Positions 10,970-32,264 of a DNA stretch of 32,864 nucleotides are shown one piece after another; the first letter of the stretch is position 1, and each line of letters starts with the position of its first letter. The position numbers and the translations under genes were made by a program. The notes below the pieces were generated by a model, which saw nothing but the letters and a program-made list of their open reading frames with translations, did no database searches and had not been told where the DNA came from. Source of the stretch: Prevotella sp. (GTDB lineage: Bacteria > Bacteroidota > Bacteroidia > Bacteroidales > Bacteroidaceae); the NCBI GenBank assembly GCA_016284895.1, contig JAEEPT010000011.1, positions 1 through 32,864 on the forward strand. Direction: 5' to 3'.

Positions 10970-11018
10970 TGTTAATAGGTTTTTAGTTAGTATTTCTTTA
11001 GGATAGTTTTTATTCGTC

Positions 11019-11384
11019 TCAATCCGATTTACTGGCTTTTGCCAACCATTCACGAGGTGTTATACCTGTGAAGTTCTTGAAGGTACGGTAGAACGATATC
11101 TCGTTGTCAAAGCCCGATTCCAAAGCGATAGCTGCTATCTTCTTGTTGGGAAACTGTTGCAACTGTTGCTTCACATAATTAATACGGTAGTCATTGATAA
11201 ACTGCGTGAAAGTATATCCGCTGTTATTCTTGATACACTCGGATATATAACGGCTGTTGACACCCAATTGGGCGGCAATATCCGACAATCGCAGTCTGCT
11301 TCTATGGAATAGCTGTTGCTCTTCCATCAGTTTGCAGATACTGTCAAAAAGAGGGTCGATGGTGTCGTTAGGCACTTTTTTCAT
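11019..11384 (-). CDS. Stand-alone AraC-type HTH transcriptional regulator (121 aa, no sensory domain)
   Basis: Typical AraC/XylS HTH: 'RLSDIAAQLGVNSRYISECIKNNSGYTFTQFINDYRINYVKQQL...IAAIALESGFDNEISFYRTFKNFTGITPREWL'. Confidence 0.9.
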   Translation of the reverse strand: MKKVPNDTIDPLFDSICKLMEEQQLFHRSRLRLSDIAAQLGVNSRYISECIKNNSGYTFTQFINDYRINYVKQQLQQFPNKKIAAIALESGFDNEISFYRTFKNFTGITPREWLAKASKSD

Positions 11385-11479: not shown

Positions 11480-13204
11480 TTAGTTGGTTTTAGCAAGCCA
11501 CTCTCTTGGTGTCATTCCAGTAAGGACTTTAAAGGCACGAAAGAATGAAGTCTCATTGGCAAAACCTGACTCCAAAGAAAGAGCGCTCAACTTGATATCG
11601 GGATGCTGGCGCAGTTGTTGTTTGGCATAGTCAATACGATAGCCATTTACGAACTGAGAAAAAGAACGGCCCTCCAGCTGGTTGATGCAGTCTGACACGT
11701 AGCGTACATTGGTACCCAGGAGGACAGCCACATCGGCCACTTTCAGTTCGCTCTGCTTGAAAAGCTGTTGTTCGGTCATCAGCTCGCGGATGCGCTGCAT
11801 GAGTGTCTCGTAAGGGGCGACAGCTACTATCGTCTCTTCACTATCGATAGGATCTGTGGTCGTTGTTGTGATGGTAGAAGAACGACCCTTCTTCCTAATC
11901 AAGATAACGACGATGATGGCTGTCAGTAGGACAAGTGCTGCCGCCATCCAAAGCCAGAAAGAACCCCAGATTGAGGTCTCGGTGCCTATTGTGGCTTCGT
12001 CAGGCGCAAAACGGAAAAGCCACACAGTGGAGAGTGGGGCGTAGTTGTCGTGCATGACATCCCCATGACCATAGTTCAGTCCTCCACAGACAATGAGGTT
12101 GCCTTCTGGTGTGATGACAAACGGGCTGAGTCCGCATTCGGGCAATGGGTCGGTATAATAGACCGTCATGGGTGCTGGCTGTTGTGAATAGTCTATGACT
12201 GCGAAATAATGCCTCTCCTTTATATCAACGCCCTGAAGATAGGCACGGTGAGTATTCCTGTCGGCCATGACTCGGGTCTCATAGCTTATCGTATCGCCTT
12301 CAATCCCATAGAAAGGCAGCGGAGAAACGGTTGGGAAAAGGGTGAAGACAGTGTCGCGCAACTCCATGATCGCTGTCTGGAGACTATCGTTATAGACCGG
12401 AAAAAGATGAATATAGCTTCCAGATTGCTCATCGCCGATGAAGCCGTCATCGTTGTTGGTGCAGAAAACCAGTATCTGCGGATGCCATTCCTGAAGTAGT
12501 GGTACTTGGAAAGCGTCGCCTTTCACTCGGTCAACGAAGTCGCTTTTGCCACGCTGAAATCTCGTATTCTCAGTGCTGATGATAACTGCGTTGTCAGGAG
12601 CAATACGAAGTATGTATGGTACGATGCGCTCCGTCGACACATCTTTTATCTTATAAAAAAGCTTTTTTCCATCGAACATCTCTATGGCATCGCGATTGTA
12701 ATGGTTGCCAGAAATAACCACTTTACCGCTGTCAAGTTCAAGTGCCGAAGCAGCAGCACGTTTAGTGTCGAGACAGCCAAAGCCTTCAAATCTGTGCGAT
12801 GCCTGATCATACCACTCCACCATGAACGACTGACCAATGCCCAGTGGTTCGGCATGACCGCCAGCCAGCAGCACTTTGCCCGATCGCAGGGCTACGGATA
12901 TTCCGTCATCGTGGGTATAGACCATCGGCAATTGATGCCACTGACCGTTACTGAAGTATTCGGCCGTTGGCGTAGGCACAAAGCCCAATGTATGACCTCC
13001 GAATACTGTCAGCTCGCCATTCAGCATAAACAAGGAATGTCCGCCACGGGGAATATTCATGTCGGGCAGACGTTCGGGTGTAATATGCACCATAGGACAT
13101 GTTGCTTCACCAAATGCCCCCCTATTTCCAGACGTTCCAAATATTCCCAAAGAAACGATTGCAAGGGCAAAAAACAGCATGATTCTACGGCAATAATGAT
13201 GCAT
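11480..13204 (-). CDS. Membrane-spanning one-component regulator: periplasmic kelch-like propeller, TM helix, cytoplasmic AraC HTH
   Basis: Signal-anchor MHHYCRRIMLFFALAIVSLGIFG; kelch-like 'GHSLFMLNGELTVFGGHT', 'GISVALRSGKVLLAGGHA'; TM 'FWLWMAAALVLLTAIIVVILIRKKGR'; C-terminal AraC HTH. The 13237 ORF start is a TTG inside the -7 box, so ATG 13204 is preferred. Confidence 0.85.
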   Translation of the reverse strand: MHHYCRRIMLFFALAIVSLGIFGTSGNRGAFGEATCPMVHITPERLPDMNIPRGGHSLFMLNGELTVFGGHTLGFVPTPTAEYFSNGQWHQLPMVYTHDDGISVALRSGKVLLAGGHAEPLGIGQSFMVEWYDQASHRFEGFGCLDTKRAAASALELDSGKVVISGNHYNRDAIEMFDGKKLFYKIKDVSTERIVPYILRIAPDNAVIISTENTRFQRGKSDFVDRVKGDAFQVPLLQEWHPQILVFCTNNDDGFIGDEQSGSYIHLFPVYNDSLQTAIMELRDTVFTLFPTVSPLPFYGIEGDTISYETRVMADRNTHRAYLQGVDIKERHYFAVIDYSQQPAPMTVYYTDPLPECGLSPFVITPEGNLIVCGGLNYGHGDVMHDNYAPLSTVWLFRFAPDEATIGTETSIWGSFWLWMAAALVLLTAIIVVILIRKKGRSSTITTTTTDPIDSEETIVAVAPYETLMQRIRELMTEQQLFKQSELKVADVAVLLGTNVRYVSDCINQLEGRSFSQFVNGYRIDYAKQQLRQHPDIKLSALSLESGFANETSFFRAFKVLTGMTPREWLAKTN

Positions 13205-14959: not shown

Positions 14960-15043
14960 TTAAAATGTAAGGATTTTTGCAAGATTTTTAGCCCCAAAGC
15001 AAAAATTTTCAATATTCAATCTTCAATATTCAATTTTTTGTAT

Positions 15044-15883: not shown

Positions 15884-15955
15884 AGGCGCTTTGCTAAATG
15901 ATAAATGAAAAATGATAAATGAAAAATGAATAGGTGGAAATCACCATTTTGCAAA

Positions 15956-17438: not shown

Positions 17439-17834
17439 TCAGCTTACGTATAGTTCTATTTCCTCAATAAGTTGTCGGGCTGGTTCAATTCTCTTAGTCA
17501 ATTCATCGGGTTCAACGTCGTAAGCACAATTATAGTCACTTTCTTCACGCATGGTTTGAAGCTGATTGTACAATTTTCCATATTCACCATCAAAGATACC
17601 TGTCTTTATATAGTGAAGGTGGAATAAAGCATGTGCGCCCTTATGGGTATTAACTAAAAGACCATCGTTCACGAACAAGGCATTGACAGCATGAAACACC
17701 GCGTAGTACAGGCGATTGGCTGCACCGTTCCAGCGGTTAGCAGCTATGAGGATTCCTATTTCTTCGAAGGTTTCGGTTGCCTTCTTTAGTTCTAACTTTA
17801 CTAACGTTGAACGTTCTTCATTGCTTAGACTCAT
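17439..17834 (-). CDS. HEPN-domain protein (probable toxin/RNase partner of MNT)
   Basis: 'NRLYYAVFHAVNALFVNDGLLVNTHKGAHALFHLHYIKTG' with R-x6-H motif; start overlaps the MNT stop by 4 nt. Confidence 0.88.
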   Translation of the reverse strand: MSLSNEERSTLVKLELKKATETFEEIGILIAANRWNGAANRLYYAVFHAVNALFVNDGLLVNTHKGAHALFHLHYIKTGIFDGEYGKLYNQLQTMREESDYNCAYDVEPDELTKRIEPARQLIEEIELYVS

Positions 17835-18145
17835 ATCAAATTGATTTTGTCGCGTTCAACATTTTTGTAAAATGGCAGAAAGGACCATTTTTCCCATTGA
17901 GTATTAGTATAGATATGTGGGCTGATCTCTTCGCCAATATCCCAGCCAAATTGTCTAAAAGGATATATTATGTCGTAGTCATCAGCTTCAAGTTTGGCCT
18001 TGTCCAACAAGATTAGCAGGTCCCAGTCGGAGCCACTGTGCGCATCACCCCGAGCCCTCGAACCGTAAAGCAGCAATTTGCTGTTTGGTGGAAGTGACTC
18101 GCGGCCAATCTTTTTTATCTGGCTTATAATCTGTGAACTATCCAT
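17831..18145 (-). CDS. MNT minimal nucleotidyltransferase (probable antitoxin partner of HEPN)
   Basis: 'LLLYGSRARGDAHSGSDWDLLILLD' (GSxxRG...SDxDLL). Start at MDSSQ 18145 because the ORF start 18181 falls in a -7-like box. Confidence 0.88.
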   Translation of the reverse strand: MDSSQIISQIKKIGRESLPPNSKLLLYGSRARGDAHSGSDWDLLILLDKAKLEADDYDIIYPFRQFGWDIGEEISPHIYTNTQWEKWSFLPFYKNVERDKINLI

Positions 18146-18178
18146 AAAAATGGTTTGCGTAACTTTTCTGTTCGCTTG

Positions 18179-18186
18179 CAAAAATA
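18179..18186 (-). promoter_or_regulatory. -7-like box upstream of MNT/HEPN
   Basis: Minus-strand TATTTTTG fits TAnnTTTG; 33 bp upstream of ATG 18145. Confidence 0.5.
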
Positions 18187-18285: not shown

Positions 18286-18344
18286 AATTATGGCCATAAT
18301 TCCGAAAATTATGGCCATAATTCTTTAAATTTTGGCTATTATTT
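18286..18344. repeat. Three palindromic sites at exact 21-bp period
   Basis: AATTATGGCCATAATT at 18287 (within 18-bp perfect palindrome GAATTATGGCCATAATTC) and at 18308; degenerate AATTTTGGCTATTATT at 18329. Confidence 0.9.
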
Positions 18345-18357
18345 TTTGCCGTCTGTT

Positions 18358-18858
18358 TTACTTCAGACCCAGCTTTGCCTTTACCTGTGCGGTGACATCG
18401 GTTGAAAGGGTGGTGTTGATGAAGGGAATGCCAGAACCCATCTCCATGATGTAGATGAAGCCGCCCTCAGTACCTACTGTCTTGATGGCATCGAGCATCT
18501 TGGTGGTGATGGCCTGCATCTTCTCGCTCTGAGCCTGCTGCAGTGCCTGCTGGTTGTCCTGATAGCTCTGCTGAATCTTCTGATACATGTCCTGCAGCTC
18601 CTGCTGACGACGCTGCTTGATGTTGTCGGGCAGTGTGGCCTGTTCCTTCTCGAATGCCTCGCCCTTCTTCTGCAGTTCGTCCTGCATCAATTTAAGGTCG
18701 GCCTCATACTGCTTTGTGAGTGCCTCAATCTCGTTGCGAGCAGTGGTGAACTCAGGCATAAGCTGAATGATCTCCTGTGTGTTTACGTGGCCGAACTTTG
18801 CCTGTGCCATAGCTGCCATAGGGAGCAGCATCATCAGTGCTAAAAAAAGTTTCTTCAT
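18358..18858 (-). CDS. OmpH/Skp-family periplasmic chaperone
   Basis: 'AQAKFGHVNTQEIIQLMPEFTTARNEIEALTKQYEADLKLMQDELQKKGEAFEKEQ', signal peptide. Confidence 0.93.
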   Translation of the reverse strand: MKKLFLALMMLLPMAAMAQAKFGHVNTQEIIQLMPEFTTARNEIEALTKQYEADLKLMQDELQKKGEAFEKEQATLPDNIKQRRQQELQDMYQKIQQSYQDNQQALQQAQSEKMQAITTKMLDAIKTVGTEGGFIYIMEMGSGIPFINTTLSTDVTAQVKAKLGLK

Positions 18859-18961
18859 TTTTGTTTTCGTTTTTTTTATTTGTGATTACTTGTTTTCCTA
18901 TTTCTTGATAGGTGATGTTCTTTTTTATATAGACTATGCAAATGGGATAAGGTTTATTTCT

Positions 18962-19477
18962 TTAGTTGGAATATCCCAGTTTACGGAGTACCTCATTGCT
19001 GATGTCGATCTTTGGTGAACCGAAGATGATACCAGTGTCGCTGGCACGGTCGAGCACGAGCTGATAGCCACGCAGGTCGGCAATATCCTTCACGGCATTA
19101 TAGACCTCTTCCTGGATGGGCGACATGAGCGATGTGCGCTTCTTGAACAGTTCGCCTTCGGGTCCGAAGTATTTGCGCTTCAGCTCGGCAGCCTGCTTCT
19201 CCTTCTCCATGATGGCATCCTGACGAGCCTTCTTCTGCTCGGCTGAGAGGAACACCACCTCGTTCTGATAGTTCTTGTACATGGTCTGAGCCTCGGTGCT
19301 CAGTGCATCGACCTCAGCCTGCCACTTGCGCGATACCTGAGACAGTTGCTCGTTGGCACGCTCATAGGCCGGTATGTTCTTAAAGATGTAGTCCATGTCG
19401 ACCAAGGCGAACTTCTGGGCATTCATCGTCATTGTTGCCATGAACATGATGGCAGTTAAAATAGCTTTTCTAATCAT
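18962..19477 (-). CDS. OmpH/Skp-family periplasmic chaperone
   Basis: 'MIRKAILTAIMFMATMTMNAQKFALVDMDYIFKNIPAYERANEQLSQVSRKWQAEVD'; start at MIRKA (19477) preferred over ORF start 19519. Confidence 0.93.
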   Translation of the reverse strand: MIRKAILTAIMFMATMTMNAQKFALVDMDYIFKNIPAYERANEQLSQVSRKWQAEVDALSTEAQTMYKNYQNEVVFLSAEQKKARQDAIMEKEKQAAELKRKYFGPEGELFKKRTSLMSPIQEEVYNAVKDIADLRGYQLVLDRASDTGIIFGSPKIDISNEVLRKLGYSN

Positions 19478-19526
19478 AACTCTCAATCCTTTATTCATCG
19501 CGGGTGAGCCGCGATACACATGAAAT

Positions 19527-19585
19527 CTTCAATTTTTCAATTTTCAATCTTCAATTTTCAATCTTCAATTTTCAATCTTCAATTT
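19527..19585. repeat. Low-complexity tandem repeat (unit CTTCAATTTTCAAT) between bamA and skp
   Basis: cttcaatttttcaattttcaatcttcaattttcaatcttcaattttcaatcttcaattt. Confidence 0.85.
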
Positions 19586-19586
19586 A

Positions 19587-22247
19587 TTAGAATTCCTGTC
19601 CGAGCACGAAGTGGAAGTTGCTGCCACCTCTCTTCTCCTGGGCAGTGCCTTGATACACTTTGTCGAAGCCGTAGGCCCAGTCGATACCCATCAATCCCAC
19701 CATTGGCAGGAAGATACGTACACCTACACCAGCCGATTTCTTCATCTCGAAGGGGTTGAACTCCTTCACGTCGTGCCATGCATTACCTGCTTCTGCAAAG
19801 GCCAGACCGTAGATGGTGGTGTTGCCCAACATGAAGGGATAGCGCAACTCCAGCGACATACGGTCGTAGGCGTAACCCTCCTGTCCGTAGGGGGTCAGCG
19901 AACCGTTCTCGTAGCCTCGCAGCCCAATGGTCTCTTCAGCATAGCTTGTTGAGTAGCCGCTCATACCGTCGCCACCCATATAGAAGGTTTCGAAGGGAGA
20001 CTTCTTATCCTTGTTGTAGCTGCCCAGAATACCGAGTTCTATGCGTGTCATGAGCACTAAGCATTTCTGTCCGTTGGTGAGTGCCGTAAAGGTACGTGCC
20101 TTGAACTTCCATTTGTGATATTCAATCCAGCGGAACTTCTGCTGTTGCTCCAGATTATACTGTTCACGGTTCTTGTTGTAGGTGGCAGTGGTAGCCAAGT
20201 TAGCATAGTCTTTGCCATCGAAGAGCGACCAGGGTGGAGTGAGCGTCACGGAGAGTGTGAACTCAGAGCCATGACGTGGGAAGAGCGGGTTGTCGGTTGA
20301 AGTACGTGTAAGTGCCAGTCCCAGGTTCAGGTTGTTACAATTACCGTTCGAGATGATAAAGTAGCGCCAGTCCTTCAGCATGTAGCGCTGATAAGAGAGC
20401 GTGGCCGACAGTTGGAAGTAGTCGTCGGGCCAGCGCAGACGCTTACCCCAGCCTATAGATGCGCCAAACAAGCGTATCGACTTGTTATCGTCGTAGTAGT
20501 TCTCGTAGTTGTTATAGTACGAGTTGTTGTAAGTGCCGTAGCCACCGTAGTAGCCATAGAGCGAGTTCATCCACGAGTTATTGTAATAAGTGCTTGACAC
20601 GTCGCTCTGCTTAGAGTAATAGACACCTACGTTGAAGGCATTGGGTCGCTTGCCACCGAACCATCCTGTAGAGTAGTTGGCACTGATAGAGCTATAGTAA
20701 CGTCCGTTGGTCTGGAAGTTCAGTCCGATTTGCTCACCGTCGCCAGCGGGCAGGATTCCACGATGAAGCTTGTTCTTACCCAGCAGGTTGCGCATGGAGA
20801 AGTTGGTGAACTTCACGCCAACGCGTCCGATGATACCCGTCTGTCCCCAACCGAGTGAGAGCTCCAGCTGGTCGTTTGACTTCTGCTGAAGGTTCCAGTT
20901 GATGTCAACCGTTCCGTCCTCATAATTAGGCTGCACATCGGGTTCCACCTTCTCAGGATCGAAGTAACCCATTGAAGCAATTTCACGAGCCGAACGCATC
21001 AGAGCATCCTTCGAGAACAAGTCGCCAGGCTTGGTACGCAGTTCGCGTCGCACCACCTCTTCATAGAGTCGGTCGTTGCCGAATATGCGCACATGGCTCA
21101 AGTGAGCCTGCGGGCCCTCTGTGATACGCATCTCAAGGTCGATAGAGTCGCCCACGATGTTGACCTCAGTAGGGTCGATGCTGGAGAACACATAGCCCGT
21201 GTTATAGTAATAGTTGCCCACGGCATCTTCGTCCTCGCGCAATCGTTTGTTCAGCAGTTTCTGGTTGTACACATCACCTTTCTTCATACCGAGCACTGCG
21301 TTCAGGTAGTCGGTGTTCACCACCGTGTTGCCCACCCAGTTCACGTTGCGCAGATAATATTTCTCTCCTTCATCGATTTTTACATAGACGTTCAAGTGCT
21401 TCGGATCGACCGTCCACACCGAGTCGTCGATGATGGTGGCATCGCGGAAGCCCAGCTCATTGTATCGTTCCAAGAGCTTCTGCTTGGCCTCGTTATAGCG
21501 TTCTGCCGTAAACTTCTTCGACTTGAAGAGGCTGTAGAACTTGCCTGTTTCATGAATTTTGCCGAAGTAGCCCTTGTTCCATATCTTTCCCTTGATTTTC
21601 TTGTCGGTGAGCTGATGGTTGCCTTCGAAGATGATTTGTTTCACTTTCATCTTCGCCTGTTTGTCCACCTTCACATCGAGCACCACCAAGTTTTTTCCCG
21701 TCACGTCATCACGCTGTACAATGTCGATGATAGCGTTTTTGTAGCCTTTCCCGTCAAAGTACTTCTTAGCCAAAATCTTCGCGCGGTCAATGAGGTTCTT
21801 GGTGAGGCTCATACCCTTAGCCATGCCTATTCGCGACTCCAGGTCCTCGCGCTCGCTCTTCTTCACACCATAATAGTTAATAGAGCTAATCTTCGGTCGC
21901 ATGGCAAGGTGTATGGTCATGTACACCTTGTGATCGATGATGCTGTCGGCTGTGATACTCACATGCGAAAACAGTCCGTGCTTCCAGTAGCGTTTCACTG
22001 CCTCGGTGACTTCAGCACCAGGGATATCGATTTCCTGCCCCACCGACAGTCCCGACAGTCCGATGACCACATAGTCCTCATAACCTTCAATGCCCTCAAC
22101 GGCCAGTCCTCCTATCTCAACGTGTCGTGGCGCGCTGCTATAGGAGACTTCCACCTGGGCTGAGGCTCCAGGAATGAAGAATGATGAATGGAGAATGAAG
22201 AATGCTGTGCAGAGCAGCAGGAACTTCGTTCTCATCCCTAACTTCAT
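19587..22247 (-). CDS. bamA: Outer membrane protein assembly factor BamA
   Basis: POTRA repeats ('INYYGVKKSEREDLESRIGMAKGMSLT', 'IIFEGNHQLTDKKIKGKI') and C-terminal barrel 'GSNFHFVLGQEF'. Start probably MKLGM (22247) or MRTKF rather than 22274. Confidence 0.94.
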   Translation of the reverse strand: MKLGMRTKFLLLCTAFFILHSSFFIPGASAQVEVSYSSAPRHVEIGGLAVEGIEGYEDYVVIGLSGLSVGQEIDIPGAEVTEAVKRYWKHGLFSHVSITADSIIDHKVYMTIHLAMRPKISSINYYGVKKSEREDLESRIGMAKGMSLTKNLIDRAKILAKKYFDGKGYKNAIIDIVQRDDVTGKNLVVLDVKVDKQAKMKVKQIIFEGNHQLTDKKIKGKIWNKGYFGKIHETGKFYSLFKSKKFTAERYNEAKQKLLERYNELGFRDATIIDDSVWTVDPKHLNVYVKIDEGEKYYLRNVNWVGNTVVNTDYLNAVLGMKKGDVYNQKLLNKRLREDEDAVGNYYYNTGYVFSSIDPTEVNIVGDSIDLEMRITEGPQAHLSHVRIFGNDRLYEEVVRRELRTKPGDLFSKDALMRSAREIASMGYFDPEKVEPDVQPNYEDGTVDINWNLQQKSNDQLELSLGWGQTGIIGRVGVKFTNFSMRNLLGKNKLHRGILPAGDGEQIGLNFQTNGRYYSSISANYSTGWFGGKRPNAFNVGVYYSKQSDVSSTYYNNSWMNSLYGYYGGYGTYNNSYYNNYENYYDDNKSIRLFGASIGWGKRLRWPDDYFQLSATLSYQRYMLKDWRYFIISNGNCNNLNLGLALTRTSTDNPLFPRHGSEFTLSVTLTPPWSLFDGKDYANLATTATYNKNREQYNLEQQQKFRWIEYHKWKFKARTFTALTNGQKCLVLMTRIELGILGSYNKDKKSPFETFYMGGDGMSGYSTSYAEETIGLRGYENGSLTPYGQEGYAYDRMSLELRYPFMLGNTTIYGLAFAEAGNAWHDVKEFNPFEMKKSAGVGVRIFLPMVGLMGIDWAYGFDKVYQGTAQEKRGGSNFHFVLGQEF

Positions 22248-22306
22248 TTTATGATATATTGATATATACTTCATCCATTAATAATTGATTAGCATCATGT
22301 ACATCT

Positions 22307-23035
22307 TCATTCTTTCATCCCTTCCACCTGAGCCTCTGTCTTTCCGAAACGTCGCTGTCGTTTCTGGTAGCTCGCAATGGCTTCATGCAGGTCTTCCTCG
22401 CTGTAGTCGGGCCAGTAAGTGTCGCAGAAGTACAGTTCTGAGTAAGCTATCTGCCACAGCAAGTAGTTAGATATGCGCAACTCACCGCCAGTTCTGATGA
22501 GCAGATCGGGGTCGGGCATAAAATTGGTGGTGAGATGTTTCGATATGCTCTCCTCGTTGATGTCCTCTGGCTTAATGCCCTCTTCAGCCATCAATCTCAC
22601 GGCATTTGTGATTTCCCAACGGCTGGAATAGCTCAGGGCCACCACCATCGTCATAGTTGTGTTGGCTGCGGTGCGCATCTCGGTCTGGCGCAACTTCTGC
22701 TGTACGTTTTCAGGCAGTCGCTTCATGTCGCCAATGACGCGGAAGCGCACGTTGTGCTTCATTAAGAGCTCGTCCTCAAGCGATGTGAGCACCAGTCCCA
22801 TAAGTGCCGATATCTCGTCGGCAGGACGATTCCAGTTCTCAGTGGAGAAGGTGTAGAGCGTGAGGTATTTCACTCCCATTCGCGTACACTCTGCCGTGAT
22901 TCTTCTCACGGCCTCAACACCAGCCTGATGGCCGTAGCTGCGCTCCTTACCACGTTCCATGGCCCAGCGACCGTTACCATCCATGATGATGGCAATGTGC
23001 TGAGGGATGCGGTCCATATCTAATTCATGCTTCAT
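22307..23035 (-). CDS. uppS: Isoprenyl (undecaprenyl diphosphate) synthase
   Basis: '[36 protein letters not shown]', '[36 protein letters not shown]'. Confidence 0.96.
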
Positions 23036-23063
23036 AATTCACAATTCTTTGTTTCACTTCTCT

Positions 23064-23765
23064 TCACTCCTTGTGGCAAGTGGGGCACTTAGCCCAAAGG
23101 TCGTAGGTGAGGGTGACGTATAAGGTGGAGTAACAATCAGTGTTCTTAAACAGACCGCTGCTCTCTATTCCATAGGGATCGCCCATGCCGTCGAGTTTGT
23201 CTCCGCCGGTGAAGTGCATCATCCACTCCACTGCCAGGTTCAGGCGAGTCGCCAGTTTATATTTTAGTCCGATACCGATAGGCAGTTGTCCTACCATAGT
23301 ACTTTTTTTGGTGGTTTCACCGTTCTGTGTCAGTTTACTGTTGGCAAAAGCCAGTCCCAGCCCGAAGGCTACGTAAGGTGTCAGCCTTTTTGCTCCGAAG
23401 TATTCGCGTCCTGTGCCGTAGGGCCAGAAGTTATATTCGTATTTCATAGCCAAATCGACAAGCGTCGTGTTGAAATCGGCTGCATGCTCGGCTAAGCCCG
23501 GATACCATGTGCCTGCTCTGGTCGATGAGCCCGTCAGAGAGCCCAAGCCCAAGTTCAAGTTCCATGCCATGTGTGGGTTCGGCTTGAATTTCGCAATAAG
23601 CGTTCCCGTGGGCCGCAGTCCCTTCAGGGGGTTGCCGTTGAAGTCGCCCACATAGGCCATAAGCCCTACTCCGCCTCCCAGTTCAAGCCTGTATTCGGGC
23701 TCGTTCTGTGCCAAGGCTGTCCCAGCCAGGAGACACAGGCTGATGAGTGCGGCGAGCTTTTTCAT
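23064..23765 (-). CDS. PorG-like / DUF6089 outer membrane beta-barrel protein
   Basis: 'YRLELGGGVGLMAYVGDFNGNPLKGLRPTGTLIAKFKPNPHMAWNLNLGLG'; position next to uppS-bamA is typical. Confidence 0.8.
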   Translation of the reverse strand: MKKLAALISLCLLAGTALAQNEPEYRLELGGGVGLMAYVGDFNGNPLKGLRPTGTLIAKFKPNPHMAWNLNLGLGSLTGSSTRAGTWYPGLAEHAADFNTTLVDLAMKYEYNFWPYGTGREYFGAKRLTPYVAFGLGLAFANSKLTQNGETTKKSTMVGQLPIGIGLKYKLATRLNLAVEWMMHFTGGDKLDGMGDPYGIESSGLFKNTDCYSTLYVTLTYDLWAKCPTCHKE

Positions 23766-23813
23766 GTTTCCACCTTAATTTATCTGTATGCGCGCGTACG
23801 CGGAACAATTTCT

Positions 23814-25115
23814 TTAAAAGTAACTCCCTAAATAGACCATGCCGTTGGTGCCGATGGCCCAGATGCGGTTGGCGGCATCTGCACTCACGCTGTAGGCATT
23901 GGCGGGCAAGAGGAAAGTATTGTTCTCAGCCCATGTGATGCCTTGGTCTCGGGTCTGATATACGGTTGTGCCGGTTCCGAATGCCAGCAGGTTGTCCAGA
24001 TGGTTCACCATTGAGAGGTTGGCGAACAGGGGCAGAAGACTCTTGTTGGTCGTATCATAGGCAATGCACACCCATTGTCCGCCCTTACTGCTGCCATCGT
24101 AGGTACTGATCTTACGCCATACGACGCTCTTCTTACCATCGTTGCCCACGAGGAGCACGTAGTCGGTTGAAGCCATCTGTGAATACCCAATATAGGTCGA
24201 TGAGATAGCGGCTGTGGGCAGGGCTGCCTTTGACCCAATCTTCTCCACAGTCCAGTTCACGCCTTCGTCGTCGGATGCCATGATGCCCCCATCGTTGCTC
24301 AGTGCAAACATTTCCTTGGTGCCTACGCCAAACAGTTGTTTCAGTCCGGGTGTGCCAGTCATGACAATCTTCTGCCAGTGTTCTCCGTCAGACGACTTGA
24401 ACAGCTCGCCGTTGCTCAGCATGAACATGAATCCATTCTTGGTTACGATGTTCTCACAAACGGATGGTGCTATGGGCAAGGGCAGGTCGGGAGTGATGGC
24501 ATTCCACGTGGTTCCCTGATCGGTTGATTTGCCGAAGACGACGGTACCGCCTTTCACACCGAAGGTGTAGAGGTCTTGTCCGAGCGTCACCAGTCGCAGT
24601 TTGGTGTTGTCTTTCAGCATGTCCACTTCAGCCTTCTGTCGCCAGGCAAATGCTTTGTCGGCAGTTTTCTTTACGTTGAGGGTCACGGTGTAGTCGCGTG
24701 AAGCGGTGCCGTCGGAAGAGTTGATACGGAAGATGCGCGGCTTGGAAAAGTCGATGCCAGTGGCAGAAGAGTAGGCCGTCATCACGTCGCTGTCGATGTT
24801 CTTGACTTGTATGACACCGTTGTTGAGCGACTTCACTATGCAGACCACGTTGTTGATGGCTGTGCCGATGGGGAGTGAGTCACGGTTGCATATCGTTGAG
24901 TTCACCTGGTCAATCACCATTTTGTAGTTCGTTCCAGCCAGCGTAGCAACAACGTTGCTTGTTCCCGGTGTATATTGCGTCAGATCACCCAGAGTGAACT
25001 CTGTGATAGCAGTGTCATTGTAAAGAATTGTCTCTTTCTCATCCTTCTTTTTGCACGAAGTCAGCACTGCGATAGCGCATATCATGCAGAAGAGCACGTT
25101 GAATAATTTTCTCAT
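23814..25115 (-). CDS. DUF6242-like lipoprotein with BNR/YCF48-like propeller repeats
   Basis: Lipobox 'CAIAVLTSCKKKDE'; 'STDQGTTWNAIT', 'SSDGEHWQKIV', 'SDDEGVNWTVEK', 'TRDQGITWAENN'. Confidence 0.8.
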   Translation of the reverse strand: MRKLFNVLFCMICAIAVLTSCKKKDEKETILYNDTAITEFTLGDLTQYTPGTSNVVATLAGTNYKMVIDQVNSTICNRDSLPIGTAINNVVCIVKSLNNGVIQVKNIDSDVMTAYSSATGIDFSKPRIFRINSSDGTASRDYTVTLNVKKTADKAFAWRQKAEVDMLKDNTKLRLVTLGQDLYTFGVKGGTVVFGKSTDQGTTWNAITPDLPLPIAPSVCENIVTKNGFMFMLSNGELFKSSDGEHWQKIVMTGTPGLKQLFGVGTKEMFALSNDGGIMASDDEGVNWTVEKIGSKAALPTAAISSTYIGYSQMASTDYVLLVGNDGKKSVVWRKISTYDGSSKGGQWVCIAYDTTNKSLLPLFANLSMVNHLDNLLAFGTGTTVYQTRDQGITWAENNTFLLPANAYSVSADAANRIWAIGTNGMVYLGSYF

Positions 25116-25144
25116 TCTGAATGCACAAAATTATAATTCGGCTG

Positions 25145-25152
25145 CAAATTTA
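25145..25152 (-). promoter_or_regulatory. -7 box of the DUF6242-like gene
   Basis: Minus-strand TAAATTTG, about 30 nt before ATG 25115. Confidence 0.55.
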
Positions 25153-25233
25153 AGCACAAATCCTCAAAAAGCATTCATTTCCACCTCTTTATTAAACAAA
25201 ATATATGATACAAGGGCCGATTTTAAGTTGTTT

Positions 25234-28200
25234 TTAGTTTTCCAGTGTCCTTGTCCGGCGATGTAACAGGTTATTGATGCACGCTTCCAGATACTTCACC
25301 GCAAAGGGTTTCTCTATGTATGCATCGATGCCGGCTTGCATGGCCTGCACTTTAGACTGGCTGTCGGTCTTGGCAGTGAGCAGAATGAATGGTATGTGGC
25401 AGGTAGCGGCATTCTGGCGCAGTCGGCTGCACAGTTCTGGTCCGTCCATATTGGCCATCATCCAGTCGCTGATAATGATATCGACAGTCGATGTGGGTGT
25501 CTTTCCGTCCTTCACCACCAAGGTTTCCTCCAGCATCTTCAGGGCCTCGGCACCATCGGCGGCATGCATCACCTCATAGCGGTCCATGAAACTGGTGACG
25601 AGGAATGTGAGCATATCCTCGTTGTCATCGACGATGAGCATCACGGGCTTCGAGAGCTCGGAGTTCTCGGAGAGCTCTGAGTGCTCTGAGTTCTCAGAGA
25701 TCTCAGAGTGCTCTCCGCTGAAGGCCTGTGCAATGGGCAGCGTGATGCTGAACTTGGTGCCTTTTCCTATCTCCGAATCCACGCTGACCTTTCCGTGGTG
25801 TTGTTCCACGATTTTCTTGACAATGCTCAGTCCGATGCCTGTGCCAGGCTTATTGTTGCGTGCCTGGAAGAAGGGATCAAACAGGTGGGCAATGTCGTCT
25901 TGAGCAACACCTTGTCCGTCGTCGGCTACGCTGATGCGGAAGCATTTTTCCTCAGCGAGCACCTCACAACTGAGTTCAATTCTGGAGCGCGTGTATTTAT
26001 CTGCGTTTGATAGCAAGTTGGTCAACACTTTCACAATGCCCTCTCGATCAACGACAGCAGTGAATTGGGCATCGGGGTAATTCACGTTGAACGTATGGCC
26101 GTGCTGTCTGAACGTGGGTTCGAAGTTGGCAGCTATGCCTCGCAGCATCTCCCTGATGTTCTGTGGGGCGAAGTTCATGTCCTGCTGGCTCTGCTGCTCC
26201 ACCTTGCGGAAGTCGAGCAGCTGGTTGACCAACTCCAGCAGGCGCTGGGCATTACGGTCGATGGTGTTGAGCAGGGCTTTGGAAGACTGGGAGGAAAGGA
26301 GGAGGCTCTCTGAGCTCTCTGAGTTCTCCGAGTTCTCTGAGCTCTCTGAGCTCTCTGCTATTTTCTTCTTCAATTGCTCCATAGGTCCTATGATGAGCGA
26401 TACAGGGGTGCGTATCTCGTGAGCGATGGTGGTAAAGAACTCCACGCGGGCATTGCGCATTTCCTCTTTCTTGGCAGCGTTGAGTGCTTCAATCTCCTTG
26501 CGGTGGCGACGTTCGTTCATGTACAGACGGAAACGAATGAAGAGGGTGATCATTGCAATGATGAGCAACACATAGAACACCTTGGCATAGATGTTCCACC
26601 AGAAAGGCGGGTGCACCTCAATCTTCAGTGTAGCCACCTGGTCTGACCACACGCCATCGTTGTTGGTGGCCTTCACGCGGAAGGTGTAGTTGCCTGGCGA
26701 CAGGTTGGTATAGGTCACCTTGTGCTCGTTGCCCACGTAGGTCCAGTCTTTGTCGAAGCCTTCGAGCATATAGGCGTAAATGTTCTTCTCAGGCGAGCAA
26801 TAGCTGAGCGAGGCAAACGACAGGCTGAATGCCTTGTCGTTGTACCACAGGTCGAGCTGTTCGGTCTTGGAGAGTGCTTGTGGCAGATGCCAGTTGCCCA
26901 CGGCGATGGGGCTGTTGTTGATTTCAAGCTCAGTGATGAAGACGGGAGCCGACTGTTGGTTGACCTTTATTTTATGAGGATAGAACGTGTTGAAGCCATT
27001 GATGGTGCCGAAGTAGATGCGCCCGTTGCTGGCTCTCAGCACAGCATTGGGCTGAAACTGCTCGCTGTCAAGTCCGTCTTGTCGGGTGAAGCGTTGCATG
27101 CCCTCGCCTGCCGTATAGTGCAAGATGCCGCGGTCGGTCGAAATCCACAGTGTGCCCTGGTCTTCGGTGATGGCGGTGATGGCGAGTCGGGGCAGGTCGA
27201 GCGCCACACGACTGAACCGGTCGCCCTCTGCCTCATAGCGGCACAGTCCGCCTTGCGTGCCGGCCCAGATAGTGCCTTTTCCGTCGATGAAAAGGCTGTT
27301 TACGAGGTTGGCACTGAGTGATTGCTGGTTGTCACTGTCGTGATGATAGGTCTTCACCTCACCGCCTTCCTTGGGATTGTAGCTCCACACGCCACTGCCC
27401 TGTGTGGCCACCCATAGTCTGCCGCCGGCATCTCTTTTCATGTCGATAGGCACCGATTGCACTTTTACCACGCGCTCGAAGTAGTCCTTCTGCCTGTTAT
27501 ACCGGCACAGTCCTTCCATTGTGGCTATCCAGATGGTGCCTTGGCGGTCGCGCAGCAGGGTGCACGAGTTGGGGTCGTAGAGTGAGTGGGCTTCTTCAGT
27601 CGGAACAATATGGCGCAATTTTCCGCTAACGGTCGAAAAAACATAGATTCCATCGCTAAAAGTGCCCATCCAGATGTCATCGCCATCAATGCAGAGCGAA
27701 TGTGCCTTGATGCCTTTAAGCTGGGTGCGGCCAGGGTAGTCGGTAATGGGTGTAGAGCCGTTTTTATAGCAGTTCAGTCCGCCCTCTTCGCGAGTGGTCC
27801 ACACACGGCCTTGACGGTCCTCCACAAAGTGGCTGGTGAGACCCGCAGCCGTGCTCTCGAAACGGTGAGCCACAGGCGACAGATAGGTCACGCCGCCATA
27901 GGCAGCGCCTATCCACAGTCCATTCTCATTGTCGCGAATCACGCTGGTGACGAAACGCAGCGGCAGGTAGAGACTGTATTCGGAAGTACGCATGTCGTAA
28001 ATCCACACACCGTCGTCACAACCCAACAGAAACTGATTGGGCGACAGCTCGTTGAGCGTGCGTATGCGCTGGTGATGCGCCGCATCGGTCGTGGGCAGTG
28101 AGTGAAGCACGCCCCCCTCGTCAATCCACAACAGGCCATCGTTGTCGGTGCCTAACCACAGTCGTCCGTCGCTTGACTGCAACATGCACAAGGCTGAGCG

Positions 28201-28824
28201 CAGCACCACACCTGGCTGTCTGGATGCCGCTTCGAACATGTTTTTCGACTTGTTCAGTTGCCACAGGGCAGGCATGCCCGTGTGCGAGATGGCCCACTGC
28301 CGTTGGTTGGCATCAGTATATACCTGTGCCACCTTGCCGTCAATGGCATTCAGGCTGTAGGTGCTGACGGGTTTCTCCGCATCGGTAAGTGAAAGACAGA
28401 GAACGCCCTGTCCGTTGGTTGCAATCCACAGATTACCGCTCTGGTCGATTGACAGATGCGTCACGGGTGCCGACAGTTCCTCGATAGGCAGAGGGGTGAA
28501 CTGCTCGTTGGCAAAGGTGAAGCGGAGCACCCCGTCGGCAGTGCCCAGCAACAGGTTGTCGTCAGGGTCGCACACCAGTGCGACAACAGCTTGCGACGTG
28601 GCCGTTTCTGGGAGCGGATAGCTCACCACACGCGTGCCGTCGTAGCGACACAGTCCGTTGTCGGTTCCCATCCAGATGAACCCACGGCGGTCCTGGACAA
28701 TAGTTCTTACGGCATTCGACAACAGTCCGTTGTCCATGGTCAGCTGCCGCTGACGATAGTTGGTTTGTGCGTTCGTGACAAGACCGAGTGTCAGCAACGC
28801 AAACAGGAGGTAAATGCGTTTCAT
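25234..28824 (-). CDS. HTCS-like hybrid sensor kinase/response regulator lacking the usual C-terminal AraC HTH
   Basis: Reg_prop repeats ('[19 protein letters not shown]', '[14 protein letters not shown]'), Y_Y_Y-like region, TM, HisKA '[19 protein letters not shown]', HATPase '[20 protein letters not shown]', REC '[11 protein letters not shown]...[14 protein letters not shown]'; ends at '[13 protein letters not shown]'. Confidence 0.95.
25652..25716 (-). repeat. In-frame 9-bp minisatellite encoding (SEx)n between the HATPase and REC domains
   Basis: GAGAGCTCG GAGTTCTCG GAGAGCTCT GAGTGCTCT GAGTTCTCA GAGATCTCA GAGTGCTCT; protein [22 protein letters not shown]. Confidence 0.9.
26305..26358 (-). 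repeat. In-frame 9-bp minisatellite encoding (SES/SEN)n inside the HisKA (DHp) region
   Basis: CTCTCT GAGCTCTCT GAGTTCTCC GAGTTCTCT GAGCTCTCT GAGCTCTCT; protein [18 protein letters not shown]. Confidence 0.9.
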
Positions 28825-28828
28825 ACGA

Positions 28829-28836
28829 CAAACTTA
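28829..28836 (-). promoter_or_regulatory. -7 box of the HTCS-like gene
   Basis: Minus-strand TAAGTTTG immediately upstream of ATG 28824. Confidence 0.5.
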
Positions 28837-28900
28837 CGAAAAAAACGCTGAAACGCGGCTACTATTAAAGAAGATTAACTCAATCAGACGATTTAATATG

Positions 28901-29032
28901 AATCATCACATGACCGAGTATTGGTCATCACATGACCAAGCATCGGTCACCGTATGACCGCACATGGGTCATGCAGTGACCGCACATGGGTCGCTCTCAG
29001 ACCACTGAGAGGTCGCTCTCTTACTGTGTCTG
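28901..29032. repeat. 22-bp tandem array (about 5.5 units) of GGTC-N7-GACC-N7
   Basis: Units at 28901, 28923, 28945, 28967, 28989 and 29011: aaTCATCACATGACCGAGTATT, GGTCATCACATGACCAAGCATC, GGTCACCGTATGACCGCACATG, GGTCATGCAGTGACCGCACATG, GGTCGCTCTCAGACCACTGAGA, GGTCGCTCTC... Confidence 0.92.
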
Positions 29033-29083
29033 CATCATTTTTCCGCCAAGAAGTCCATTGCTTACTAAATTGTGAGCGAGAAA

Positions 29084-29115
29084 TTTGGAATTCTGCATAT
29101 TTTACCGTACTTTTG
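29084..29115 (+). promoter_or_regulatory. Promoter of the acyl-CoA ligase gene
   Basis: TTTG (29084-29087), 20 bp, TACTTTTG (29108-29115): good fit to Bacteroidetes TTTG-N19-21-TAnnTTTG. Confidence 0.75.
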
Positions 29116-29146
29116 CACCAATATATTATATAATTGAAGGTAACCT

Positions 29147-30958
29147 ATGGAGCAAATCAATTCGCACATGTCCCGCCTCGTACACGACGTGGCAGCCCAA
29201 CTGGGCGACCGTGAAGCACTCATCTATAAGGACTTTGGCGGAACGGAGTGGAAATCCTATTCCTGGAATCAGTTCTCAGCGATGGTCAAGAAAATGTCGA
29301 ACGCCATGCTCAATCTGGGCATTACGGTACAGGAGAATGTAGGCGTGTTCTCGCAGAACAGCGTGCAGTATCTCTTCACCGACTTCGGTGCCTGGGGCAT
29401 TCGCGCAGTCACCATACCCTTCTATGCCACATCGTCGGAACAGCAGATTCAGTACATGATAAGCGATGCCAAGGTGCGCTTCCTCTTCGTGGGCGAACAG
29501 GAGCAGTACGAGAAGGCGCGCCGCGTGTTCTCCATGTGCAAGACACTGGAGAAAATCATCGTGTACGACCCTGCCGTGCATATCGATGAAAACGACAATA
29601 CGGCCATTCACTTCGATGACCTTCTGAAGGCTGCCGAAGGACTGCCCCGACAGAGCGAAGTGGAGAACCGCCAGAAGAGCGCCACCTTCGACGACATTGC
29701 CAACATCCTGTACACCAGTGGCACCACGGGCGACTCGAAAGGTGTCATCCTCACTCACGGACAGTATCATGCAGCAATGGAGGCCAACCACAAGTGCGTG
29801 CCAGTCACGGAGAACGACCGCGTGATGAACTTCCTGCCCTTCACTCACATCTTTGAGAAAGGATGGAAGATACTGTGCATCACTGTGGGCGCACGCCTCA
29901 TCGTGAACACAAAGCCCATGGAGGTGCAGCAGAGCATGCGCGAGACCCATCCCACCTGCATGTCGAGCGTGCCACGATTCTGGGAAAAAGTGTACATGGG
30001 AGTGCAGGAAAAGATAGAAAACAGCGGACTCATGCAGCGCAAGCTGTTCAAACACGCACTGAAGGTGGGCCGCAAGCACAACATAGAATACCTGGCCTGC
30101 GGCAAGCAGCCGCCACTCGGCCTGCACCTGGAATATGAAATGCTGAACCGCACCGTGTTCTCACTCGTGCGCAAGGAGCTGGGACTGGAGAATGCACACT
30201 TCTTCCCCACAGCAGGTGCCGCCGTGTCACCATACGTAGAGGAGTTTGTTCACAGCATAGGCATCATGATGGATGTAGGCTACGGCCTCACCGAGAGTCT
30301 GGCCACCGTCAGCTGCGACCGCGTGGGCGGGCCGTTCACAGTGGGATCGGTAGGAAGACCTATCGAAGGACTCGATGTGAAGATCAGCGAAGAGGGCGAG
30401 GTGCTTCTGAAAGGCCCCACCATCACCCGAGGCTACTACAACCGCGACGATATCACGCGCGAGTCATTCACCGAAGACGGCTACTTCAAAACGGGCGACT
30501 CAGGCTTCTTCCAGAACGGCGAACTGTTTCTCAAAGACCGCATCAAGGACCTGTTCAAGACATCCAACGGCAAGTACATCGCTCCGCAGATGATTGAGTC
30601 GAAACTGCTCGTCGATAAGTACATAGACCAGTTGGCCATCATCGCCGACCAGCGCAAGTTCGTCTCGGCTCTCATCATACCCGTCTATTCCCTCCTGGAA
30701 GAATATGCACGCGAGCACGACATACCCTTCTCGTCGCGCGAGGACCTCTGCCAGAACGAGCAGATTCACCAGATGATGATGGAACGCATCGACACCCTGC
30801 AGCAGCAGTTGGCCCACTATGAGCAGGTGAAGCGCTTCACCCTGCTGCCCCACCACTTCTCACTGGAGCGGGGCGAGCTCACCAACACGCTCAAGATCAA
30901 GCGCCGCGTGCTCAACGAGAACTATAAGGCCGAGATTGACAAGATGTACGAGGAGTAA
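29147..30958 (+). CDS. AMP-dependent long-chain fatty acid--CoA ligase
   Basis: 'NILYTSGTTGDSKGVILTHGQ', 'DVGYGLTESLATVS', 'FKTGDSGFFQNGELFLKDRIKDLFKTSNGKYIAPQMIE'. Confidence 0.94.
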   Translation: MEQINSHMSRLVHDVAAQLGDREALIYKDFGGTEWKSYSWNQFSAMVKKMSNAMLNLGITVQENVGVFSQNSVQYLFTDFGAWGIRAVTIPFYATSSEQQIQYMISDAKVRFLFVGEQEQYEKARRVFSMCKTLEKIIVYDPAVHIDENDNTAIHFDDLLKAAEGLPRQSEVENRQKSATFDDIANILYTSGTTGDSKGVILTHGQYHAAMEANHKCVPVTENDRVMNFLPFTHIFEKGWKILCITVGARLIVNTKPMEVQQSMRETHPTCMSSVPRFWEKVYMGVQEKIENSGLMQRKLFKHALKVGRKHNIEYLACGKQPPLGLHLEYEMLNRTVFSLVRKELGLENAHFFPTAGAAVSPYVEEFVHSIGIMMDVGYGLTESLATVSCDRVGGPFTVGSVGRPIEGLDVKISEEGEVLLKGPTITRGYYNRDDITRESFTEDGYFKTGDSGFFQNGELFLKDRIKDLFKTSNGKYIAPQMIESKLLVDKYIDQLAIIADQRKFVSALIIPVYSLLEEYAREHDIPFSSREDLCQNEQIHQMMMERIDTLQQQLAHYEQVKRFTLLPHHFSLERGELTNTLKIKRRVLNENYKAEIDKMYEE

Positions 30959-30979
30959 AAAGAGAAGTTTATTAATAAT

Positions 30980-32098
30980 ATGATAACCCAAGACCAATTA
31001 AAAGACGTATTAGATAGAGCCGAGAAACTGTACCGCTATCTGCGCATCGACGAGAAGCAGATGGAGTATGAGGAAGAAGAACTGCGCACACAAGCACCTG
31101 ATTTCTGGGAAGACCCCAAGCGAGCCGAGGAACAGATGAAGAAGGTGAAAGGCATCAAGAAATGGATTGATGGCTATCACGACGTGAAAATGAAAGCCGA
31201 TGAGTTGCAGCTGGCATTCGACTTCTACAAAGAGGAAATGGTGACCGAGGCTGAGGTGGACCACGACTACGAGCTGGCCATCCAAGCCATAGAGCAGCTG
31301 GAACTCATGAACATGCTGAGACAAAAGGAAGACCCCATGGACTGCGTACTGAAAATAAACAGCGGAGCAGGCGGCACCGAGGCACAAGACTGGGCACAAA
31401 TGCTCATGCGTATGTATATGCGCTGGGCTGAGGCTCACGGCTATAAAGTGACCATATCCAGCATACTCGACGGTGAAGACGCTGGCATCAAGAGCGTCAC
31501 AATGCAAATAGAGGGCGGAGAATATGCATACGGCTTCCTAAAATCAGAAAACGGCGTTCACCGCTTGGTGCGCGTCAGTCCATACAATGCCCAGGGCAAG
31601 CGCATGACCTCGTTCGCATCGGTCTTCGTATCGCCCTTGGTCGATGATACTATTGAGGTGTATGTGGATCCCGCCAAACTGTCGTGGGATACGTTCCGAA
31701 GCAGCGGAGCTGGCGGTCAGAACGTGAACAAGGTGGAGTCGGGAGTGCGTCTGCGCTACTGGTACACCGATCCTGATACGGGCGAAGAGGAGGAAATCCT
31801 CATCGAGAACACCGAGACGCGCGACCAGCCGAAGAACAAGGAACGTGCTATGGCACTGCTCCGCTCACAGCTCTACGACCGTGCCATGAAGAAGCGACTG
31901 GAGGCACAGGCCAAGATTGAGGCAGGCAAGAAGAAGATAGAATGGGGCAGTCAGATCAGAAGCTACGTGTTCGACGATAAGCGCGTAAAGGATCACCGCA
32001 CCAACTATCAGACCAGTGATGTAGATGGCGTGATGAACGGAAAAATAGACGAGTTCATCAAAGCCTACCTCATGGAATTCCCTGTGAACGAGGAGTAA
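30980..32098 (+). CDS. prfB: Peptide chain release factor 2
   Basis: 'RSSGAGGQNVNKVESGVRL' (GGQ) and 'NSGAGGTEAQDWAQMLMRMY'; 'RVSPYNAQGKRMTSFASVFVSP'. Confidence 0.96.
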   Translation: MITQDQLKDVLDRAEKLYRYLRIDEKQMEYEEEELRTQAPDFWEDPKRAEEQMKKVKGIKKWIDGYHDVKMKADELQLAFDFYKEEMVTEAEVDHDYELAIQAIEQLELMNMLRQKEDPMDCVLKINSGAGGTEAQDWAQMLMRMYMRWAEAHGYKVTISSILDGEDAGIKSVTMQIEGGEYAYGFLKSENGVHRLVRVSPYNAQGKRMTSFASVFVSPLVDDTIEVYVDPAKLSWDTFRSSGAGGQNVNKVESGVRLRYWYTDPDTGEEEEILIENTETRDQPKNKERAMALLRSQLYDRAMKKRLEAQAKIEAGKKKIEWGSQIRSYVFDDKRVKDHRTNYQTSDVDGVMNGKIDEFIKAYLMEFPVNEE

Positions 32099-32175
32099 AA
32101 GCACTGCTCTAACTCTCCCAAAGGGGGTAAAAAGTGCTGACAAGGCGATGCCGGGTAATTCTCTCTTACTGAAAG

Positions 32176-32264
32176 AGAGGGTTCAACACTGAGAAACAGA
32201 GGCTTCAACACAGAGAATGAGAGGGTTCAACACAGAGAAAGAGAGGCTTCCAACATAGAGTAAC
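32176..32264. repeat. Four-unit 22-bp tandem repeat
   Basis: AGAGGGTTCAACACTGAGAAAC | AGAGGCTTCAACACAGAGAATG | AGAGGGTTCAACACAGAGAAAG | AGAGGCTTCCAACATAGAGTAAC. Confidence 0.92.

Follow-up and report, generated by a model that had tools for sequence, protein, structure and literature searches.

Palindromic sites that are repeated at a pitch of about two helical turns and bound cooperatively by protein are known from iteron, parS, matS and operator arrays. Other short palindromes are dispersed between genes in species-specific families, such as the REP, BIME and REPIN sequences, which are 20-40 bp long, carry an unpaired GTAG or CGTC tag, lie mostly downstream of genes and, in the GTAG types, are associated with RAYTs (PMC3733652, PMC3116915). 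Within the Bacteroidales, Porphyromonas gingivalis carries BrickBuilt, a MITE with an internal 23-nt minisatellite that is intergenic, is present in about 19 copies per genome and repeats a partly conserved, partly variable unit of about two helical turns (PMC4596501). Its unit shows indels, is repeated from 1 to 22.8 times, and lies between a long leader and a long tail that bear terminal inverted repeats. The intergenic tandem arrays of Prevotella that we describe here are similar to BrickBuilt in location, copy number and general kind of unit, however their unit is 22 or 21 bp and never the 23 nt of that element, is free of indels in the GGTC family (see below), forms palindromic arrays of 3 or 5-7 units with a species-dependent core, and mostly stands without leader or tail; in the GGTC and TTCCCA families no leader or tail with terminal inverted repeats was found. 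An earlier reading of this DNA, made from sequence only, had mentioned a 22-bp repeat class in P. gingivalis, where the published element that we found is BrickBuilt, which has 23 and not 22 nt and lies within a MITE (PMC4596501). Similar to REP-type sequences, the arrays are short palindromes dispersed between genes in species-specific families, although they differ in forming rigid 22-bp tandem arrays, in lacking the tag and any preference for gene ends, and in showing no covariation of the kind expected of a palindrome kept by pairing. The likeness to iteron, parS, matS and operator arrays is one of working only; the Prevotella arrays lie at many chromosomal loci, a plasmid, origin or partition gene context was not seen around them, and their core differs between congeners. 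In its working the class resembles an iteron or operator array and in its spread a small dispersed repeat, and it has neither the tag and the pairing covariation of REP nor the 23-nt unit of BrickBuilt. Among openly licensed papers we found no description of this repeat class in Prevotella or Bacteroides, and it is apparently undescribed.

The stretch of DNA that was analysed (the window, 32,864 nt) belongs to a metagenome-assembled genome of 3.4 Mb that is 87% complete, was sampled as stretches, and has rumen Prevotella as its nearest named relatives by comparison of release factor 2. The sequence-only reading had noted three arrays of unrelated units with a period of 21-22 bp in the window, and both Tandem Repeats Finder (TRF) and direct reading of the sequence confirm this: all three arrays are recovered, all are intergenic, and their units have no sequence in common. 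Array 1 (18286..18348) consists of three 21-bp units, each made of the 16-bp palindrome AATTATGGCCATAATT and a 5-bp spacer (TRF limits 18286-18347, period 21, 3.0 copies; dyad p=0.02). Array 2 (28901..29014, plus strand) is built of about five GGTC-N7-GACC-N7 units and a half unit (TRF limits 28903-28972 and 28956-29003, period 22; dyad p=0.0005); its existence stands as first read, with its end moved slightly inward from 29032. Array 3 (32171..32260, plus strand) consists of four non-palindromic 22-bp direct repeats of AGAGGSTTCAACACAGAGAAWS, the last with a 1-bp insertion (period 22, 4.0 copies in the same TRF limits). When the window was block-shuffled five times as a control for chance, TRF returned one array at a score of at least 50 and none with a period of 21-22. 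The three arrays are not one kind of thing, as the comparisons below make clear. Elsewhere in the window a 69-bp repeat (10200-10348) lies within a minus-strand gene of 1183 aa (7502-11053).

A histogram of unit lengths in intergenic and coding DNA, of the kind that the sequence-only reading had proposed for this genome and its relatives, was made on the sampled stretches and gives a sharp intergenic peak at 22 bp, which in the own genome and in related species spans many unrelated unit sequences, as had been predicted. Among the intergenic arrays that TRF returns from 466 kb of the own genome, 25 of 58 have period 22, as compared with 2 of 31 among the coding ones. Because 12 contigs of this sample had been picked for their GGTC arrays we repeated the count without them, and period 22 is again the top intergenic class (11/36 arrays; 31.6 per 100 kb intergenic). 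Around release factor 2 in 80 Prevotellaceae loci (1.49 Mb), 37 of 193 intergenic arrays have this period (28.6 per 100 kb), where each neighbouring period holds about 1.7 arrays (Poisson P ~3e-36), and in a complete congener (G045, 400 kb) the count is 11/61 (18.3 per 100 kb). The corresponding coding arrays number 5/105 and 1/30, respectively. Moreover, a lag spectrum of the own intergenic DNA, which is independent of TRF, has its maximum at lag 22 with 44 and 66 also high and 11 and 33 not; periods 11 and 33 are likewise rare by TRF in the 80 relatives. Combined, the TRF counts across samples and the lag spectrum lead us to conclude that period 22 is real, intergenic and concentrated in Prevotella. 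The suggestion that the period might be a wider Bacteroidales trait finds no support in our sample, since 40 stretches from other families of the order (62 kb intergenic) hold 2 period-22 arrays where 17.8 are expected at the genus rate (3.2 versus 28.6 per 100 kb, about ninefold rarer; P ~3e-6), and a sample of the phylum holds none. Periods 7, 14 and part of 21 form a separate class of A+T-rich heptad repeats, with strong intergenic peaks of their own in the 80 relatives (39 arrays at period 7 and 26 at period 14) and with mostly intergenic examples in the window at 19524-19585, 15004-15034, 15896-15930, 22172-22204 and 23021-23047.

Array 2 belongs to a dispersed family. The pattern GGTC-N7-GACC-N7-GGTC-N7-GACC, whose half-sites in array 2 alternate in orientation every 11 bp, has 34 exact matches in the own genome and 0 for the reversed control, and among 59 congeners it is found only in G027 (2) and G045 (1). 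The 34 matches are spread over 13 contigs, two of which (C275 and C286) seem to hold opposite sides of a single locus, so that we count 12 distinct loci. Stacked in register, the arrays are indel-free and have 5-7 units each, and 6/12 open in identical register with a terminal half-unit GATTTARTAT, seen at the AT-rich end of array 2 as GATTTAATATG (28890..28900, plus strand). Across 69 units the GGTC/GACC cores carry 1.2-1.9 bits per position, a conservation that, like that of the TTCCCA arrays below, is in part ascertainment because the loci were found by exact or near-exact core patterns, and both dyad centres carry about 0.0-0.1 bit. Spacer identity between loci is 0.67 at unit index 1 and drops to 0.27, the level of chance, at index 5, with the cores intact. 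In place of the local homogenisation that had been suggested as one possibility, we observe for array 2 a family at 12 loci in which cores are held and spacers drift. A degenerate scan returns 13 arrays at a threshold of either 17 or 22 of 24 and 0 in shuffled DNA, and since the count stays at 13 at every threshold there are no half-decayed arrays. The arrays lie in divergent as well as tandem intergenic regions and have no neighbour genes in common. Array 2 itself has the gene of a hybrid two-component regulator on one side and that of an AMP-binding enzyme on the other, and it lies upstream of a sequence (29084..29115, plus strand; TTTG-N20-TACTTTTG) that precedes the enzyme gene and that we take to be a Bacteroidota-type promoter-like match; at another locus (L026) the array comes after a promoter-like sequence of similar kind. 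The regulator gene, on the minus strand, contains 9-bp repeats of its own (GAGTGCTCA and GCTCTCTGA, at 25652-25713 and 26305-26357). One further GGTC array (L018 162-515, contig C52) sits within a long inverted repeat (AACAGATATTTGTTGAG...CTCAACAAATATCTGTT) that has TAAGACATAATAACAG-type repeats on its flanks.

Array 1, which had been grouped with the 22-bp arrays, is instead a copy of a separate 21-bp dispersed element. Arrays of AATTATGGCCATAATT occur at six loci in the own genome, that is at five further loci besides the window, with exactly three 21-bp units at 6/6. Most of the copies also agree over about 70 bp to the left and 50 bp to the right of the array, where no clear terminal inverted repeats or target duplication was defined, and the window copy keeps the array alone. 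Arrays 1 and 2 represent two dispersed families, which we place in one Prevotella-wide class of intergenic arrays with a fixed geometry. Array 1 lies directly after an OmpH-like gene and 105 bp upstream of the start of an MNT nucleotidyltransferase gene, which together with an overlapping HEPN gene forms a pair of toxin-antitoxin type downstream of the array (17439-18181). Among the unannotated neighbours at the other loci we noticed no pair of this kind, and we therefore do not favour array 1 as its operator here. For array 3 we found no further array in the own genome at up to 2 mismatches, no significant dyad symmetry (p=0.22), and, in relatives, nothing that corresponds to it behind release factor 2; it has its period in common with the class and nothing else that can be demonstrated, and its place among the palindromic arrays, as a non-palindromic single locus, is not upheld.

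Additional evidence for a wider class comes from other Prevotella. A column-based dyad test on ungapped arrays, which replaced a blunter test on TRF consensus units, finds dyad symmetry (p<=0.05) in 16 of 28 testable 22-bp arrays, the other 12 being not significantly palindromic, as compared with 0/21 arrays of 14 bp and 2/9 of 21 bp. When the 16 are aligned on the dyad, offsets 2-7 are paired and conserved (0.91-0.98) and offsets 8-10 are unpaired, which defines a 15-bp palindrome and a 7-bp spacer; the pairing at offsets 3-7 follows from the way that the arrays were selected, whereas the drop at 8 and the difference in conservation do not. The cores are unrelated between arrays (TTCTAG-CTAGAA, TGTAGC-GCTACA, GAAACA-TGTTTC, TTCCCA-TGGGAA and others). 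The pattern TTCCCA-N3-TGGGAA-N7 occurs in 18 of 90 congeners, a single genome having up to 31 matches; it is absent from 60 genomes of other families (reversed controls 0), and comprises exactly three units at 15/22 loci. In G045 we observe AAGTATC-N4-GATACTT-N4 arrays that alternate every 11 bp. The outer spacer found most often within the GGTC arrays is likewise AAGTATC, so that the two families may be linked by descent. At five loci (L030, L070, L086, L164 and L170) arrays with different units adjoin in an unbroken 22-bp register. At the first of these (953-1190) the two arrays are AACGTCATTCGCTTTGAGTGAA and TAGCCTAAATCGTGATGTGATA, the second of which resembles the AT-rich end of the GGTC arrays, and at the last (12106-12660, in G045) at least four different 22-bp repeat stretches follow each other over about 550 bp of mostly intergenic DNA, the first changing gradually between successive units. 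Set against the intergenic background, the 22-bp arrays show no preference for promoters, terminators, or convergent, divergent or tandem gene pairs.

Comparison of orthologous sites reveals that arrays come and go, that some are kept, and that every unit at one site has had its core replaced. A lack of orthologous arrays in relatives, which was to count against the sequence-only reading, is seen for arrays 2 and 3, for which we found no array at the orthologous place in 80 relatives, and does not extend to the class. An ortholog map of intergenic sites gave a single gene pair for which both species have 22-bp arrays. The site with the replaced core, shared by P. ruminicola KHT3 (L097) and Prevotella sp. 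MA2016 (L091), has flanking DNA that is about 89% identical and lies 23-25 bp after the same stop codon and, by reading, before a putative TPP-riboswitch-like leader. Each species has three 22-bp units there, with TTCCCA-N3-TGGGAA in one and GAAACT-N3-AGTTTC in the other. A change of unit sequence under a constant spacing, as had been envisaged, is therefore observed at this one orthologous site, with position and period kept. In the same two species a second orthologous array (L256/L263), of TTCCCA type, is 90% identical within poorly alignable intergenic DNA, its adjoining downstream region being 81% identical. Elsewhere the sequences that flank an array are 96-115 bp apart (L114) versus only 9-30 bp in four relatives.

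The class as observed thus combines a fixed geometry, dispersal, a near-fixed number of units, lineage-specific cores and the absence of pairing covariation, and it has the features of a cooperative protein-binding array, namely dyad-symmetric units, a constant helically phased pitch, and arms that are more conserved than spacers. We propose, at a strength that we would call an even balance, that these arrays are docking places for dimeric DNA-binding proteins that act cooperatively and differ in specificity by lineage, and whose binding, cooperativity and cellular role we infer from the sequence. The arrays offer a palindromic site every two helical turns (22 bp, sometimes 21). Each unit most likely serves one dimeric protein, with a half-site in each of two consecutive major grooves of one face. 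The exact pitch of 22 bp would bring successive dimers to a common face, where 3 or 5-6 of them could bind side by side and form one nucleoprotein complex. The recognition letters vary by lineage (GGTC/GACC here; in other lineages TTCCC/GGGAA, GAAAC/GTTTC and AAGTATC/GATACTT), which probably reflects a changing specificity of the proteins that the arrays then follow. Candidate roles of such a complex are chromosome architecture, insulation or silencing, and control of mobile elements; since the arrays prefer neither promoters nor gene ends, an ordinary operator or terminator is disfavoured, and the roles that remain are architectural, insulating or linked to an element. The sequence-only reading had supposed that one process, or one class of DNA-binding or architectural factor, favours this spacing, and the common geometry of about 15 bp of palindrome and 7 bp of spacer indeed fits a class of dimeric DNA-binding factors, although membership is not upheld for array 3 and array 1 is a 21-bp dispersed element of its own. 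More tentatively, the conservation of geometry (3 or 5-6 sites) while sequence is replaced in concert by lineage could point to fast-evolving cooperative binders that co-evolve with their arrays at many loci.

The main rival to the docking arrays is that these are miniature mobile repeats, similar to REP/BIME sequences or MITEs, in which the palindromes would be sites of a transposase and the 22-bp pitch would come from that transposase and not from a function in the host. We regard this as possible, if on the unlikely side. It is favoured by the dispersal of similar arrays largely within one species, by the near-fixed unit number of each family, by the flanks that most of the six array-1 copies have in common, by the L114 flanks that lie closer together in four relatives, and by the precedent of BrickBuilt with its 23-nt minisatellite in 19 copies (PMC4596501). 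Genes for Y1_Tnp (RAYT-type) are also found in 16/18 TTCCCA-positive as compared with 40/72 other congeners, a weak association that is uncorrected for kinship (Fisher p=0.013). However, neither the GGTC nor the TTCCCA arrays have a common flank, inverted ends, or a GTAG/CGTC tag outside the array, and the two genomes richest in TTCCCA (G035 and G020, with 31 and 16 matches) have no Y1_Tnp. The own genome has a Y1_Tnp fragment that is flanked by other palindromes (GGCGGATTTGCAATCCGCC), with no GGTC array in the 1.85 kb read, and one transposase is not expected to give unrelated cores at one constant pitch. This short RAYT-like fragment (L241 1-700, own contig C291) has the REP-like GGCGGATTTGCAATCCGCC palindromes on its 5' side and a duplicated GCCTGCAAAATGAGCTATTG stretch on its 3' side.

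We consider it quite improbable that replication slippage duplicates any sequence and that only periods near two helical turns survive, for reasons of topology or curvature, with the palindromes incidental or an aid to slippage. The merging of arrays of different units in one register would fit this, as would the non-palindromic 22-bp units, array 3 included, and the greater likeness of neighbouring than of distant units in the GGTC arrays (0.49 falling to 0.35). Nevertheless, periods 11 and 33 are helical multiples as well and are rare, dyad symmetry is found at period 22 and not at 14, near-fixed unit numbers and one core at many loci are not products of local slippage, and other families, which have the same helix, show the peak weakly or not at all. 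Less probable still is that the arrays act as RNA, forming tandem hairpins that terminate or stabilise transcripts, a reading suggested by the palindromic units and by some arrays that directly follow stop codons (L097, L091 and L247). We found no compensatory covariation across the dyad of the GGTC arrays (p=0.44, 0.93 and 1.0) or in the inner arm pair of the TTCCCA arrays (p=0.39), which argues against hairpins and, for GGTC, in favour of half-sites that are read independently as DNA, and in the 16 other dyad-symmetric arrays 11 changes are one-sided and 1 is double and unpaired. The arrays are also not enriched at convergent gene ends, array 2 lies upstream of its neighbour's promoter-like sequence, and Rfam matches none of the arrays, its only match in the window being a tRNA; for the lack of covariation the hairpin reading was rejected. 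That the shared 21-22 bp of the three window arrays is a chance meeting of unrelated curiosities, as the single and non-palindromic array 3 and the separate families of arrays 1 and 2 might suggest, is the remotest reading and is already contradicted for arrays 1 and 2 by the genome-wide and genus-wide 22-bp peak, standing for array 3 only.

Should the arrays indeed be docking sites for cooperative dimers, a large and ecologically important genus would organise part of its intergenic DNA by arrays in which spacing and not sequence is conserved. They would offer a direct system in which to study the joint replacement of a DNA-binding specificity and its target sites at many loci, and would point to a DNA-binding protein, as yet a putative one, in rumen Prevotella. 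Even as mobile repeats, they would make up a defined class that could serve to compare and type genomes of a genus that is known largely from metagenome assemblies.
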